DNA of 64,000 bases from Sulfobacillus thermosulfidooxidans (lineage in GTDB: Bacteria > Bacillota > Sulfobacillia > Sulfobacillales > Sulfobacillaceae). Where the stretch lies: NCBI RefSeq assembly GCF_001280565.1, contig NZ_LGRO01000001.1, forward strand, positions 868,001-932,000. Reading direction: 5' to 3'. This document shows, in pieces, positions 17,299-22,867 of this stretch. The notes under the pieces are model-generated. The model worked only from the letters and a program-made list of their open reading frames with translations, did not search any database and was not told the DNA's origin. Made by a program: the position numbers and the translations under genes. Each line of letters opens with the position of its first letter. Position 1 is the first letter of the stretch.

Positions 17299-18032
17299 AG
17301 ACTTATGGTCGATCAGACCAAGGCCTGGTGCGCAGTGAAAATCAAGACGACTTTTTGATTCGGCCTGTTGAAGATGGGGGATTCTTGCTCGCAGTGGCTG
17401 ATGGGATTGGAGGCGGCCCGGCGGGAAGTCGCGCGAGTCATATGGCTTTAGAAGCCATGGATGATGCAGTAGGGGTTAACGTCGTTGATGTTTCGCGCCT
17501 GGTGTCCGCGGTATCCTTGGCTAATCGGCGCATTTTCGAGTTGGGGCAAGGTGATACCCGGTTGGAAGGTATGGGAACAACGTTGACGGCCGCTGTATTA
17601 TTTCCCGACCGTCTTCTTCTCAGTCACGTTGGGGATTCACGGGCTTATCGCATACGCCATGATCAAATTATTCGTTTGACCATGGATCATTCCGTGGCAG
17701 GTGAAATGGAACGGGCCGGTACAATTACGCCGGAAGAGGCTCAAGATCATCCCAAAAGACACGTGCTGACCAGGGCCTTAGGTCCATTTGATCGGGTGCG
17801 GATTGATGTAGCTGATATGCCGTGGTCCTATGAGGATCGCTTACTCTTATGCACAGATGGTCTAACCTCCGTCATTGCTGATGATGAAATTCTGCGCTAT
17901 GCCGAACGGTATCACGGCCAAGACCTAATTGACCAACTCGTTGATGCGGCGCTCAGGCGAGGCGGCCCAGATAATATTACCGTTGTATTAGCAGAAGTAG
18001 TGCAAGACCGTGGTGAAAGCAATGGTAGGTAA
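17295..18032 (+). CDS. prpC: PP2C-type Ser/Thr protein phosphatase
   Basis: Metal-dependent phosphatase that counteracts the adjacent PrkC kinase. 245 residues, full length. Metal-binding aspartates are found in GRSDQGLVRSENQDDF, ADGIGGGPAG, LCTDGLTSVI and GGPDNITVVLAE. The SHVGDSRAY motif is also present. GTG 17295 overlaps the rlmN stop, and the gene overlaps prkC by 11 nt, so the phosphatase and kinase are translationally coupled, the standard Gram-positive order. Cytosolic. Confidence 0.95.
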   Translation: MKTYGRSDQGLVRSENQDDFLIRPVEDGGFLLAVADGIGGGPAGSRASHMALEAMDDAVGVNVVDVSRLVSAVSLANRRIFELGQGDTRLEGMGTTLTAAVLFPDRLLLSHVGDSRAYRIRHDQIIRLTMDHSVAGEMERAGTITPEEAQDHPKRHVLTRALGPFDRVRIDVADMPWSYEDRLLLCTDGLTSVIADDEILRYAERYHGQDLIDQLVDAALRRGGPDNITVVLAEVVQDRGESNGR

Positions 18033-19905
18033 GATTTTAGGTAGTCGATATGAAATCTTAGAGCGAATTGGACAAGGCGGTATGTCCTTAGTCTACCGAG
18101 CCCGTGATATTACGCTCAATCGCCTGGTTGCCGTGAAGATCCTCAAACATCAATGGGCTGAAGATGACGAAGTGGTGCATCGTTTCGATCAAGAGGCACG
18201 TGCCGCTGCTTCTTTAGTGAATCGTCATATTGTGCAAGTTTATGATGTCGGACGCGAAGATCCTGATATCCATTATATGGTTATGGAATTGGTATCGGGA
18301 GAAACATTACGCAATAAACTGGATCGGGATGCGCCTTTGTCTGTCGAATGTGCTTTACGCATTGCCGACCAAGTAGCGCAAGGATTAGAAGCCGCCCATG
18401 CCCAGAAGGTCGTTCACCGGGATATCAAACCGCAAAATATTCTAATTGCGGCTGATGGTACGGTGAAAGTGACGGATTTTGGCATTGCCTATGCAGCCAC
18501 ATCTGGTACGCTGGTGAATACGGGTTCACTGCTCGGAACCGTACAATATTTAAGTCCCGAACAGGCTCGGGGAAAACTTGTGGGACCCCAGTCTGATCTC
18601 TATTCCTTGGGGATTGTCTTATTTGAAATGTTAACGGGCCAATTACCGTTCGAAGCGGATAGCCCTATTGGTGTCGCCATTAAGCATCTTCAAGACGAAG
18701 CCCCTGATGTGACCACCTTGCGCCCAGATATTCCTCAGCCGGTGGCAAAGATTGTTCAGCGCGCATTATCAAAGGATCCCGCTGAACGGTATCAAAGTGC
18801 CAAAGCCATGCAACAAGACATTCAACGTGCCTTGCATGGGGAAGAGACAGCAATGCCAGAAGTCGCGACCAAACAACCAGGAATTGAACCACGATCGACT
18901 GATAAACGCCGGCGAAAATGGTTGCCATGGGCGATTGCTGCGCTGATTGTGGCCTTATTGGTCGGAACTGGTCTTTACGCGTTTGATCGCTGGATTTATA
19001 CCCCAGCGGTAACATTACCCAATGTTAAGGGAGAGCCCCTGAGTACGGCTCGGGCTAAGCTGGGGAAACTTGGTTTGACGGTAACAGTAGGGGGAAAGGC
19101 GCCGTCCTCGCATCTTCCCAAGGACTACATCTTGAACGAGATTCCGGCAGCAGGAACCCAGGTTAAAGCAGGGCAAAGTGTCGAAGTGATTTTATCAACC
19201 GGCCCTCAGCAAGTGCTGGTTCCCGATGTTAAAGGCGAAGATGTTTTTCAGGCGGTGCAAAACCTTAAGACGGAGGGGCTTACGGCCATAACGAAGCATC
19301 TCAAGAGTCACGCTGCCAAAGGGCAGGTGATTCGGCAGAGCCCTGCCCCTGGTACTAATTTGGCACAGGGACAGCCTGTGACCATTTGGGTGTCGGATGG
19401 ACCGCCAACCAGTAAGGAAATCATGCCGGATTTGGAAGGATTATCTGTTTCCCAAGCAGCTAGTTTGCTCATTGGGATGAATATTTCTGTCGGCACACCC
19501 ACATCAAGTTATAGCACGGAACCTGTGAATACGATTATTGATCAAAATCCTGAGCCGTATTCTTCACTGTCGAATGTGAGCCAAGTAAATGTCACAGTCT
19601 CCGAAGGACCAAGTCCTCAAAGTGCCAACCTGCCAAAAAACGTCACCGTGGCGACATGGCAAATTCCGAATAATGCACCGCCTAAGTCGCTCTTGAAAGT
19701 AGTGGTTACAGACAGTGCTGGCAACGAGGAGGTCATTTATCAGCAGGTGGATCCGGGCCAGCAAATTCAAATTCCGGTAACGTGGTATGGGACGCGCGGC
19801 CAATTGTTGGTATTTCTCAATGGGCAAGCACAAGCACCCCAGCCACTAACCGCAAACGGTAATACGACGAGTCCCGCTGTCGGGACAAGTACACCTCCCT
19901 CATAA
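18022..19905 (+). CDS. prkC: Membrane Ser/Thr kinase with PASTA repeats
   Basis: Hanks-type receptor kinase that senses muropeptides or lipid II and, in spore formers, contributes to germination and stationary-phase signalling. 627 residues from ATG 18022; GTG 18010 is an alternative. The kinase domain covers roughly residues 8-270: GQGGMSLVYRA loop, Lys in VAVKIL, HRDIKPQN with His132 and Asp134, and DFGIAYA. One transmembrane helix (WAIAALIVALLVGTGLYAF) follows a basic RRRKW stop-transfer. Outside are three PASTA repeats beginning TLPNVKGEPL, VLVPDVKGED and IMPDLEGLS, then a non-PASTA beta-rich C-terminal region and a Thr/Pro tail. Confidence 0.95.
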   Translation: MVGKILGSRYEILERIGQGGMSLVYRARDITLNRLVAVKILKHQWAEDDEVVHRFDQEARAAASLVNRHIVQVYDVGREDPDIHYMVMELVSGETLRNKLDRDAPLSVECALRIADQVAQGLEAAHAQKVVHRDIKPQNILIAADGTVKVTDFGIAYAATSGTLVNTGSLLGTVQYLSPEQARGKLVGPQSDLYSLGIVLFEMLTGQLPFEADSPIGVAIKHLQDEAPDVTTLRPDIPQPVAKIVQRALSKDPAERYQSAKAMQQDIQRALHGEETAMPEVATKQPGIEPRSTDKRRRKWLPWAIAALIVALLVGTGLYAFDRWIYTPAVTLPNVKGEPLSTARAKLGKLGLTVTVGGKAPSSHLPKDYILNEIPAAGTQVKAGQSVEVILSTGPQQVLVPDVKGEDVFQAVQNLKTEGLTAITKHLKSHAAKGQVIRQSPAPGTNLAQGQPVTIWVSDGPPTSKEIMPDLEGLSVSQAASLLIGMNISVGTPTSSYSTEPVNTIIDQNPEPYSSLSNVSQVNVTVSEGPSPQSANLPKNVTVATWQIPNNAPPKSLLKVVVTDSAGNEEVIYQQVDPGQQIQIPVTWYGTRGQLLVFLNGQAQAPQPLTANGNTTSPAVGTSTPPS

Positions 19906-19925: not shown

Positions 19926-20783
19926 GTGCAGGGATTAGTCGTGTTGTTAGAGGCGAATCGTCCCACGGTGGAAACGGATGACGGACAACGGTTTTTGTGC
20001 TATTTACGAGGAAAAATTAAACGGGATGCTGGCCGTATTTTGGTCGGAGACCGGGTGGAGATCATGCCGACGGATCCGGGTGAGGCGATTATTACCAAAG
20101 TTTTGCCCCGGTCCCATTCACTCTTTCGTCCTCCTGTGGCTAATGTATCCGGGCTATTTGTCATTTTCAGCTTTACAGAACCCCGGGGCAGTTTGGAATT
20201 GCTGGATAAACGATTGGTGATGGCGCACATTTTAAATGTGGAAGCGGAAATTGTGGTAACGAAAACTGACTTAGTCGACAATCCCGAGAAATTAACCCGG
20301 TTTATGACGCTGTATCAAAATATTGGATACAGGGTTTGGGCTACGAGCGTGACAACGGGCGAAGGAATTCCGGCATTTTTGGAGGCACCCCGGACGGGAA
20401 TATGGGTTATGGTGGGCGAGAGTGGAGCGGGCAAATCGTCCCTGGCTAAAGCGCTGTTACCGCATGAAGACCTCTCTATTCAAGGATTAAGTCGAATTGG
20501 TCGCGGCCAACAAACTACGCGTTGGGTCCGTCTTTTGAAGACTCGGCAATTCTGGTTAGCGGATACTCCTGGCTATACCGCCTTAGATATGTCAGTTAAG
20601 GATCCGCAATTAATTCGGCAAGCGTTCTGGGAGTGGGATAACGCCTCCTGCCGTTTTCCTGGATGCTTTCATATTGACGAGCCTGGTTGTGATGTATTGC
20701 CGAAAGTGAGGCAAGGGATCTATGATCCTCTGCGTTATGAGCATTACCGCCTCATTCTTAGCCAATGGGTTAAACGGTATTAA
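19926..20783 (+). CDS. rsgA: Ribosome small-subunit GTPase A
   Basis: Circularly permuted GTPase that checks late 30S assembly. 285 residues: N-terminal OB fold, then the permuted order G4 (VTKTDLV), G1/P-loop (GESGAGKSSL), G3 (ADTPGYT), and a C-terminal zinc knuckle (Cys in ASCRFPGC, His in FHIDEPGC). GTG 19926 is preceded by AAGGAG. In Bacillus the order is prkC-rsgA-rpe-thiN-spoVM; here rpe and thiN are missing and spoVM follows after a small membrane gene. Confidence 0.95.
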   Translation: MQGLVVLLEANRPTVETDDGQRFLCYLRGKIKRDAGRILVGDRVEIMPTDPGEAIITKVLPRSHSLFRPPVANVSGLFVIFSFTEPRGSLELLDKRLVMAHILNVEAEIVVTKTDLVDNPEKLTRFMTLYQNIGYRVWATSVTTGEGIPAFLEAPRTGIWVMVGESGAGKSSLAKALLPHEDLSIQGLSRIGRGQQTTRWVRLLKTRQFWLADTPGYTALDMSVKDPQLIRQAFWEWDNASCRFPGCFHIDEPGCDVLPKVRQGIYDPLRYEHYRLILSQWVKRY

Positions 20784-20936
20784 GGCTGGATTAATTTACC
20801 AGGCCATAGACAGCCTACAATCTTGCAAAGATGACGACTCACTTATTCACCTTCTCGCATATCATGAAATGAGGCGCAAGACCTTCCTTATGATGTTCCA
20901 TTGCATTCGACGACTCACCTTTTCGACATGACGGGT

Positions 20937-20977
20937 TCATGCACCATTTGCGGAGGATTCCGTACCATGGTGAATGA
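20937..20977 (+). other. Structured leader before the small membrane protein/spoVM unit
   Basis: Near-perfect outer arms TCATGCACCAT (20937-20947) and ATGGTGAATGA (20967-20977), enclosing an inner CGGA/TCCG stem. No T-run follows. It ends 21 bp before the next ATG and immediately upstream of that gene's AAGGAGGTGA, so it may set translation or mRNA stability. The rest of the rsgA-to-20999 gap holds no supportable gene. Confidence 0.4.
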
Positions 20978-20998
20978 TCCGTGAAGGAGGTGAGAAGG

Positions 20999-21220
20999 AT
21001 GAGATATCGTCGTTATGCAATGGGGTCCCGACAGACATTGACGCGCCGATTAACAGGGGCTGGTTTATCATTGGCCGGTGGCATTATTGTTATCAAAGTG
21101 TTTCCTTTATGGATTTGGCCAGTCTTTGTGGGTTTATGGATGTTTTGGGCCGGGCTCGGGCCGGTATTAGTAGGAATTGGGCTCATTTGGTTAGGATGGA
21201 AGCTGTTATCTGGGTGGTAA
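20999..21220 (+). CDS. Small two-helix membrane protein
   Basis: 73 residues of unknown family. A basic, Arg-rich N-terminus (MRYRRYAMGSRQTLTRR) is followed by two hydrophobic segments rich in Gly, Leu, Ile and Trp (GLSLAGGIIVIKVFPLW and GLGPVLVGIGLIWLGWKLL), giving a likely N-in hairpin membrane topology. ATG 20999 follows an outstanding AAGGAGGTGAGAAGG. It lies directly upstream of spoVM, with 32 nt between its stop and the spoVM start, so a role at the forespore or another membrane during sporulation is possible but only inferred from position. Confidence 0.6.
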   Translation: MRYRRYAMGSRQTLTRRLTGAGLSLAGGIIVIKVFPLWIWPVFVGLWMFWAGLGPVLVGIGLIWLGWKLLSGW

Positions 21221-21252
21221 AGACAGGGCACAATGAGAAAGGACGGATGACA

Positions 21253-21342
21253 ATGCAGGTTCAAGTAGTGAAAGTTCCCCGATTTGTTGGCAAAATCCTA
21301 CAAGTGGTGTTAAGCTTTTGGGCTAAAGAAAAGAAATCATAA
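21253..21342 (+). CDS. spoVM: Stage V sporulation protein M (amphipathic coat anchor)
   Basis: A 29-codon gene, far below normal ORF cut-offs. SpoVM is a tiny amphipathic helix that marks the convex outer forespore membrane and recruits SpoIVA for coat assembly. The product has KVPRFVGKIL at residues 7-16, matching KLPKFLGGIV of Bacillus SpoVM with the functionally important Pro at position 9 when ATG 21253 is used. The tail is basic (AKEKKS). AAAGGA (21238-21243) fits ATG 21253 better than ATG 21247. Context is also right: in Bacillus spoVM lies after the prpC-prkC-rsgA block and next to rpmB, and both neighbours are here. The homology call rests on short motifs plus synteny. Confidence 0.85.
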   Translation: MQVQVVKVPRFVGKILQVVLSFWAKEKKS

Positions 21343-21353
21343 CTGAGGTGATT

Positions 21354-22226
21354 ATGACGGATTATCGACGTAAGGCGACGGCAGCCGATGGCACCATGCG
21401 AATCATTGTAGCAAACACGAAAGATACCGCGCTACAAGTTCAGCGTGTCCACCAAGCCTCCCCTGTGGCTGCCGCCGCCATGGGGCGGCTGTTAACAGCG
21501 GCAGCCCTTTTGGCCGCCGATTTTAAAGATGCAGCACTCGTTAAAGTGGAAGTAGATGGTGGGGGGCCATTAGGACGGGTTATTGCGGAAGCCCGGACTG
21601 GCGGCCGGGTGCGGGCACGCGCTGAACATCCTCATGTGACATTGCCACTGCGAAGTGATGGCAAATTAGCGGTCGGACAAGCTGTTGGCAGCGATGGCGT
21701 GTTTAAAGTGACGCGCGAGGAGCATAATGGCGTAATTTATCAGGGGCAAGTGGAATTGTTGAGCGGGGAAATTGGTCAAGATTTCGCCCAGTATTATACG
21801 CTTTCTGAACAGATTCCTAGCGCTGTGGCTTTGGGTGTTCTGATCGGCACGGATTCTTTTGTTCAAGCTGCTGGCGGTCTCGTTGTCCAGGCCTTGCCGG
21901 GTAGTGAGCCCTATATTGATGGTGTGAGTACGCGCTTTTCCCATTTGGACCACCTTAGCCACCGATTAGCAGAGGGGGAAATCCTTGAACAACTCGCTGA
22001 AGAGGTCATGGGTATTACTCTTCATTGGTACGATCCCGAGCCGATTTACTATCAGTGTGAGTGTAGCAAAACCCGGAGTCTGGAAATTTTATCCAGTTTA
22101 CCCCGGGGTGAAATTGAAGAACTTGTAAAAGATCAGGGGGCAGAAGTTGTCTGCCATTATTGCCACACCGCTTATCAATTTTCCCAAAGTGATATTGAGA
22201 AATTGCTGGACCGGGCGATAGATTAG
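21354..22226 (+). CDS. hslO: Redox-regulated chaperone Hsp33
   Basis: Cytosolic holdase activated by oxidation. 290 residues from ATG 21354 (GAGGTG 21345-21350 precedes it). The N-terminal fold is visible in [20 protein letters not shown], and [12 protein letters not shown] and [11 protein letters not shown] are conserved core segments. The C-terminal zinc switch is complete: Cys pair in YQCECSKTR and Cys pair in [10 protein letters not shown]. It lies 11 nt after spoVM, probably co-transcribed, and its stop overlaps the convergent rpmB stop by 4 nt. Confidence 0.95.
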
Positions 22227-22501: not shown

Positions 22502-22867
22502 ATGGAAAGACGCACCGAATATGGGACGTTAGCGATTAACGATGAGGTGCTTGCAGCCATTGTTCAATCGGCTGTTCTTGAGATGCCTGGAGTTGCCGAT
22601 GTGGGGACGTTTGGCTTGGGAGAGGGTCTTACCGAGTTGATCAAAAAAGACACGGCAACACGGGGAGTAACCTTTCAAGACACGGATCAAGGACTCGTTG
22701 TAGAAATTGCCGTGGTCGTGGACTATGGAGAACGCATTCCCGTGCTGGGACGCCGAATTGTAAACCGGATTAGCCAAGCCTTATCCGATGCGGTTTCGAT
22801 TCGCCCGGCTAAAGTTGTGGTCGAAGTGCAAGGCATTCGCTCCGGTACTCCCGAGTCTACCCATTAA
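22502..22867 (+). CDS. Asp23/Gls24-family envelope protein
   Basis: 121-residue Asp23 domain protein (YloU-like) of the Gram-positive envelope-stress family, usually peripheral to the membrane. Visible motifs are GTLAINDEVLAAIVQSAVLEMPGV, VEIAVVVDYGERIP and VEVQGIR. GAGGAGGC precedes ATG 22502. In Bacillus the next gene is the fatty-acid kinase subunit fakA (yloV) before recG; here recG follows directly 37 bp downstream, so fakA is displaced or absent. Confidence 0.9.
   Translation: MERRTEYGTLAINDEVLAAIVQSAVLEMPGVADVGTFGLGEGLTELIKKDTATRGVTFQDTDQGLVVEIAVVVDYGERIPVLGRRIVNRISQALSDAVSIRPAKVVVEVQGIRSGTPESTH

Follow-up and report, generated by a model that had tools for sequence, protein, structure and literature searches.

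This locus raises the question of whether a very short open reading frame of Sulfobacillus thermosulfidooxidans encodes the sporulation peptide SpoVM and, if so, with which partner the peptide could act. In the window (the whole stretch of 64,000 nucleotides that was analyzed), an intact ORF running from ATG to TAA is found at positions 21253-21342 of the forward strand. Its product, MQVQVVKVPRFVGKILQVVLSFWAKEKKS, is 29 amino acids long, followed by a stop codon, and carries a proline as residue 9; translation thus confirms the 29-codon gene with Pro9 that an earlier, sequence-only reading of this DNA had proposed. The opposite strand contains stop codons throughout. A ribosome-binding site, AAAGGA, is located at 21238-21243 on the same strand as the ORF, and purine-rich counterparts precede the ORFs of relatives. 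An in-frame ATG at 21247 was also considered as the start. It is less likely, because the spacing to AAAGGA suits ATG 21253 better and because the 21247 codon is absent from most relatives. At the position aligned with ATG 21253, nearly all relatives (66 class members) have an ATG, GTG or TTG, and a purine-rich site lies 5' of it. On the grounds of translation, conservation, substitution pattern and profile matches we annotate 21253-21342 as spoVM. It is very likely that this ORF is the spoVM of Sulfobacillus, with a peptide that the mother cell probably produces in sporulation, along with an upstream membrane protein, and with a presumed role at the base of the spore coat.

The distribution of the gene among relatives was analyzed with tblastn. 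It is present in 38 of the 39 genomes of the order, that of the window included, mostly as a single match in the same neighbourhood. The sole exception is a genome of 97% completeness (G105), in which profile searches found neither SpoVM nor the upstream membrane-protein gene, so that the locus may have been lost or left unassembled. Across 25 codons in the seven genomes of the genus, changes are almost purely synonymous: pS is 0.81 and pN 0.03, i.e. a pN/pS of 0.037, and second codon positions show no difference at all. No comparable synonymous pattern was seen in the two shifted frames of the same seven genomes. The two checks proposed with the sequence-only reading, conservation of the codons in relatives and a substitution pattern of the coding type, therefore both came out in favour of a gene, the start being aligned across the class. 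Pro9 is kept in 66 of 66 class members; in a published alignment of SpoVM, a peptide of about 26 amino acids, this proline is the sole fully conserved residue (PMC5607322).

To what family does the peptide belong? The NCBIfam model SpoVM_broad (NF033436) gives 16.4 bits where 31 are required, a Pfam scan gave no match, and with the curated SpoVM models even the best member of the order reaches just E=5.4e-4. These results count against SpoVM, as do a glutamine at residue 2 and the failure of a profile restricted to the order, which did not reach Bacillus SpoVM in the PDB. Several matches point to SpoVM. The weak match to NF033436 is the only one that the peptide has in NCBIfam, and its only PDB match, weak as well (E=0.58), is SpoVM. 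A profile of 26 class sequences matches the solved SpoVM structure 2mvh with E=1.9e-6. A profile built from 23 SpoVMs, all from outside the window's order, matches 2mvh with E=3.4e-9 and, when run over the whole genome, finds exactly one place, 21253-21342, with E=3.3e-9. Since the order-only profile misses Bacillus SpoVM, the kinship depends on intermediate sequences, which were gathered by searches seeded with the window peptide. Judged from profiles, synteny and Pro9, membership of the product in SpoVM is secure, and a known family thus gains a new, divergent member. The identity suggested by the sequence-only reading is thus supported, and its remark that divergent SpoVMs are rarely annotated agrees with the published statement that SpoVM is "rarely recognized in genome annotation" (PMC3533761), as well as with the outcome for the curated models, which miss this peptide. 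Our literature search found no publication combining SpoVM with Sulfobacillus; spherical endospores have been described in S. acidophilus.

The neighbourhood of spoVM was then considered. Upstream, on the same strand, are a PASTA-domain Ser/Thr kinase of the PrkC type (18010-19905; NCBIfam NF033483, 566 bits, above cut-off), the GTPase gene rsgA (19926-20783; TIGR00157, 171 bits, above cut-off) and a gene for a small membrane protein (20999-21220). Downstream, hslO, for the Hsp33 chaperone, begins a few bases after spoVM (21348-22226, forward strand; PRK00114.1, 262 bits, above cut-off). It is followed on the reverse strand by rpmB, for ribosomal protein L28 (22223-22441), identified as an ORF from its sequence and place and from synteny with relatives, and on the forward strand by an Asp23-family gene (22502-22867; Pfam PF03780, 69.5 bits, above cut-off). 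The order PrkC, RsgA, small membrane protein, SpoVM, HslO, L28, Asp23, RecG is found throughout the order and partly in the class, and the location of rpmB two genes 3' of spoVM, on the opposite strand, recurs in relatives. The sequence-only reading had placed the ORF next to rsgA and rpmB. This holds for the region; it does not hold for direct adjacency, as the immediate neighbours are the 73-aa membrane-protein gene and hslO, with rsgA one gene further upstream and rpmB beyond hslO. The gap between rsgA and the membrane-protein gene (20784-20998) measures about 200 nt in the genus, and most other genera of the order have a clearly wider one. Ahead of spoVM, some class members carry a gene that resembles rpe, so rpe may have left the rsgA-spoVM gap.

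Two readings would deprive the peptide of its own role. The ORF could have arisen by chance, being short and falling under every curated cut-off. Such an origin has a negligible probability and is ruled out by conservation across the order (38 of 39 genomes), by the synonymous pattern (pN/pS 0.037), by synteny and by the independent profile match, which is the only one in the genome (E=3.3e-9). It could also be a leader whose translation is coupled to that of hslO, the peptide itself being secondary: the hslO start lies 5-11 nt 3' of spoVM, and hslO comes immediately next in the order. Beyond the order, however, SpoVM mostly occurs without hslO directly after it, and selection acts on the peptide sequence rather than on the reading frame alone; we consider a leader very improbable.

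We also examined the gene directly upstream. From ATG 20999 it encodes a hydrophobic protein of 73 amino acids with a basic start (the frame is open from GTG 20981), preceded by a strong ribosome-binding site, AAGGAGGTGA, at about 20983-20992, and it ends 32 nt upstream of spoVM. It is conserved directly before spoVM in relatives, its pN/pS within the genus is 0.32, and the family has an invariant proline in mid-sequence. Neither the protein nor its shorter relatives matched any Pfam or NCBIfam family over cut-off. A profile of the family gave no meaningful match in the PDB, and a fold search with a single-sequence model (pTM 0.42) gave none.

We ran a profile of this membrane protein (A3) against 398 genomes of the phylum with E<=1e-3. 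It identified 69 places in 68 genomes, distributed as follows: 63 are directly upstream of a SpoVM or SpoVM-like ORF, and for 32 of the 69 a strong SpoVM match is found no more than 300 nt downstream. Of the remaining 37, 31 precede a weaker SpoVM-like ORF (hand count), three are inside longer proteins, two come from the family that includes Thermoanaerobacter and lack a SpoVM, and one is unclassified. In a set of 57 such loci, 34 of them picked when a SpoVM match was known beforehand and 23 through the membrane protein alone, the SpoVM profile scored at least 8 bits just downstream in 41 cases and in none of the reverse-complement and reversed controls. A SpoVM-like ORF was present next door in 18 of the 23 loci picked through the membrane protein alone. 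Many of the SpoVM-like ORFs beside the gene are too divergent for the SpoVM models, and by hand count the association extends over about 24 families. The gene is not universal to SpoVM, as it is absent at 14 of the 46 strong SpoVM matches. These synteny results suggest that 20999-21220 encodes an overlooked partner of SpoVM, and from gene order we infer that the two proteins work together. To the broader proposal, that a phylum-wide unnamed family acts with SpoVM at the forespore membrane and that its gene marks SpoVMs beyond the reach of sequence models, we would give even chances. The protein might help SpoVM to insert, protect it, or hold the coat base.

Two conserved, promoter-like blocks were observed upstream of the membrane-protein gene. 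One, CACCATT-N12-CGTANNAT, lies at 20942-20968 on the forward strand and is present with equal spacing in 7 of 7 genomes of the genus. The other, GACTCA...CGCATATCAT, lies at 20836-20865 and reads GACTNA...CGCATANNAT across the genus. The exact form of the first has its sole copy in the genome at 20942-20968. We also considered it as a general sporulation promoter; this role is unsupported, because near matches number 91 compared to 77 for the control and the block is absent before spoIVA.

How the peptide could act was approached through Bacillus. There, the amphipathic helix of SpoVM inserts into the slightly convex forespore membrane, the P9A substitution abolishes both localisation and curvature preference, and SpoVM then recruits SpoIVA (PMC12004969); the binding of the two proteins needs Ile6 of SpoVM and Gly486 of SpoIVA (PMC5607322). 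For the Sulfobacillus peptide, single-sequence structure prediction gives a helix at about residues 10-28 after a non-helical start (mean pLDDT 79.5), and the helical moment over residues 11-23 is 0.51 compared to 0.41 for Bacillus. The genome encodes SpoIVA (400 bits), a protein of 492 amino acids ending in GGLICIII, in which residue 486 is Gly in six species of the genus, the numbering being taken from its length, and it also encodes SigE (414 bits). The best score of a sigma-E promoter scan was inside the range of shuffles. A search for SipL (PF12673) gave no match; it had no working control and is hence uninformative. By analogy we infer mother-cell expression, membrane binding, curvature preference and SpoIVA recruitment for the Sulfobacillus SpoVM. 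The peptide would probably be produced in the mother cell during sporulation along with the upstream membrane protein, and its helix would lie in the mother-cell-derived membrane surrounding the forespore. Owing to Pro9, the N-terminal stretch would stay non-helical, which in Bacillus is the basis of the preference for slightly convex membrane. Residue 6, a valine here, could contact the C-terminus of SpoIVA, which would then polymerise as the base of the spore coat.

The peptide could nevertheless be SpoVM by descent and matter little for coat assembly, SpoIVA being held mainly by other means. C. difficile offers such a case: SpoVM is largely dispensable there, and spoVM mutants lose just 3- to 5-fold in heat resistance (PMC5607322). 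In the same direction, Lys2 is not retained in the Sulfobacillus genus, where residue 2 is Gln; in B. subtilis, replacement of Lys2 by Ala blocks cortex formation via the CmpA checkpoint. CmpA is described as limited to Bacillales (PMC5607322). Against a minor role stand the very strong purifying selection on the peptide and its retention across nearly the whole order, which favour a needed function. We regard a dispensable SpoVM as rather unlikely, and the preferred reading is still a SpoVM that serves the coat base.

With these results, the SpoVM-SpoIVA coat base extends to Sulfobacillus and its order. Their distance from Bacillus speaks for this base as an old part of sporulation. Distant SpoVMs in genomes where searches fail had been left open (PMC3533761), and SpoVM profiles combined with the upstream gene reveal many such cases. 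SpoVM itself is a known family; the membrane-protein gene is the part that specialists may not expect, and it gives one of the most thoroughly studied curvature-sensing peptides a candidate partner that can be tested.

The SpoVM-like ORFs of other spore formers vary in form. In three records of Thermoanaerobacterium, such an ORF follows the membrane-protein gene and carries a short extension at its N-terminus, MSKKKEPK, ahead of where the motif usually begins; in one of the three, a frame change alters the end of the ORF. At the loci examined in Thermoanaerobacter and Caldanaerobacter, the rpmB region comes immediately after the membrane-protein gene and SpoVM is missing there, in agreement with an earlier report that SpoVM was not found in Thermoanaerobacter (PMC3533761). 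At three loci of one genus, the SpoVM-like ORFs have His9 and Pro10 (MKIYAVKLHP...), so that the key proline is naturally displaced.

Compared to known systems, the pair resembles CD25622-spoVM of C. difficile in having an unnamed small gene directly upstream of spoVM and rpmB nearby. CD25622 is co-transcribed with spoVM and has 50 aa; its published description restricts it to Peptostreptococcaceae, and an insertion mutant with a polar effect on spoVM is no worse than a spoVM mutant (PMC5607322). Likened here by description, with 50 aa against 73 aa in Sulfobacillus, it could be of the same family to judge from its location and length. With the SpoVM of B. subtilis (26 aa; 2mvh; NF033436, PF08183), the ungapped alignment gives 8 identical residues out of 26 (M1, K7, P9, F11, G13, I15, L20, K25), and the sequence-only reading was right that most other residues differ from Bacillus. 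The Sulfobacillus peptide has Gln2 instead of Lys2 and Val6 instead of Ile6, is three residues longer at its C-terminal end, scores under the curated model cut-offs, and its gene is directly flanked by hslO and the small membrane-protein gene. The two have in common their length, an alignment without gaps, Pro9, a non-helical start followed by an amphipathic helix, a locus near rsgA and rpmB, and a SpoIVA encoded in the genome.
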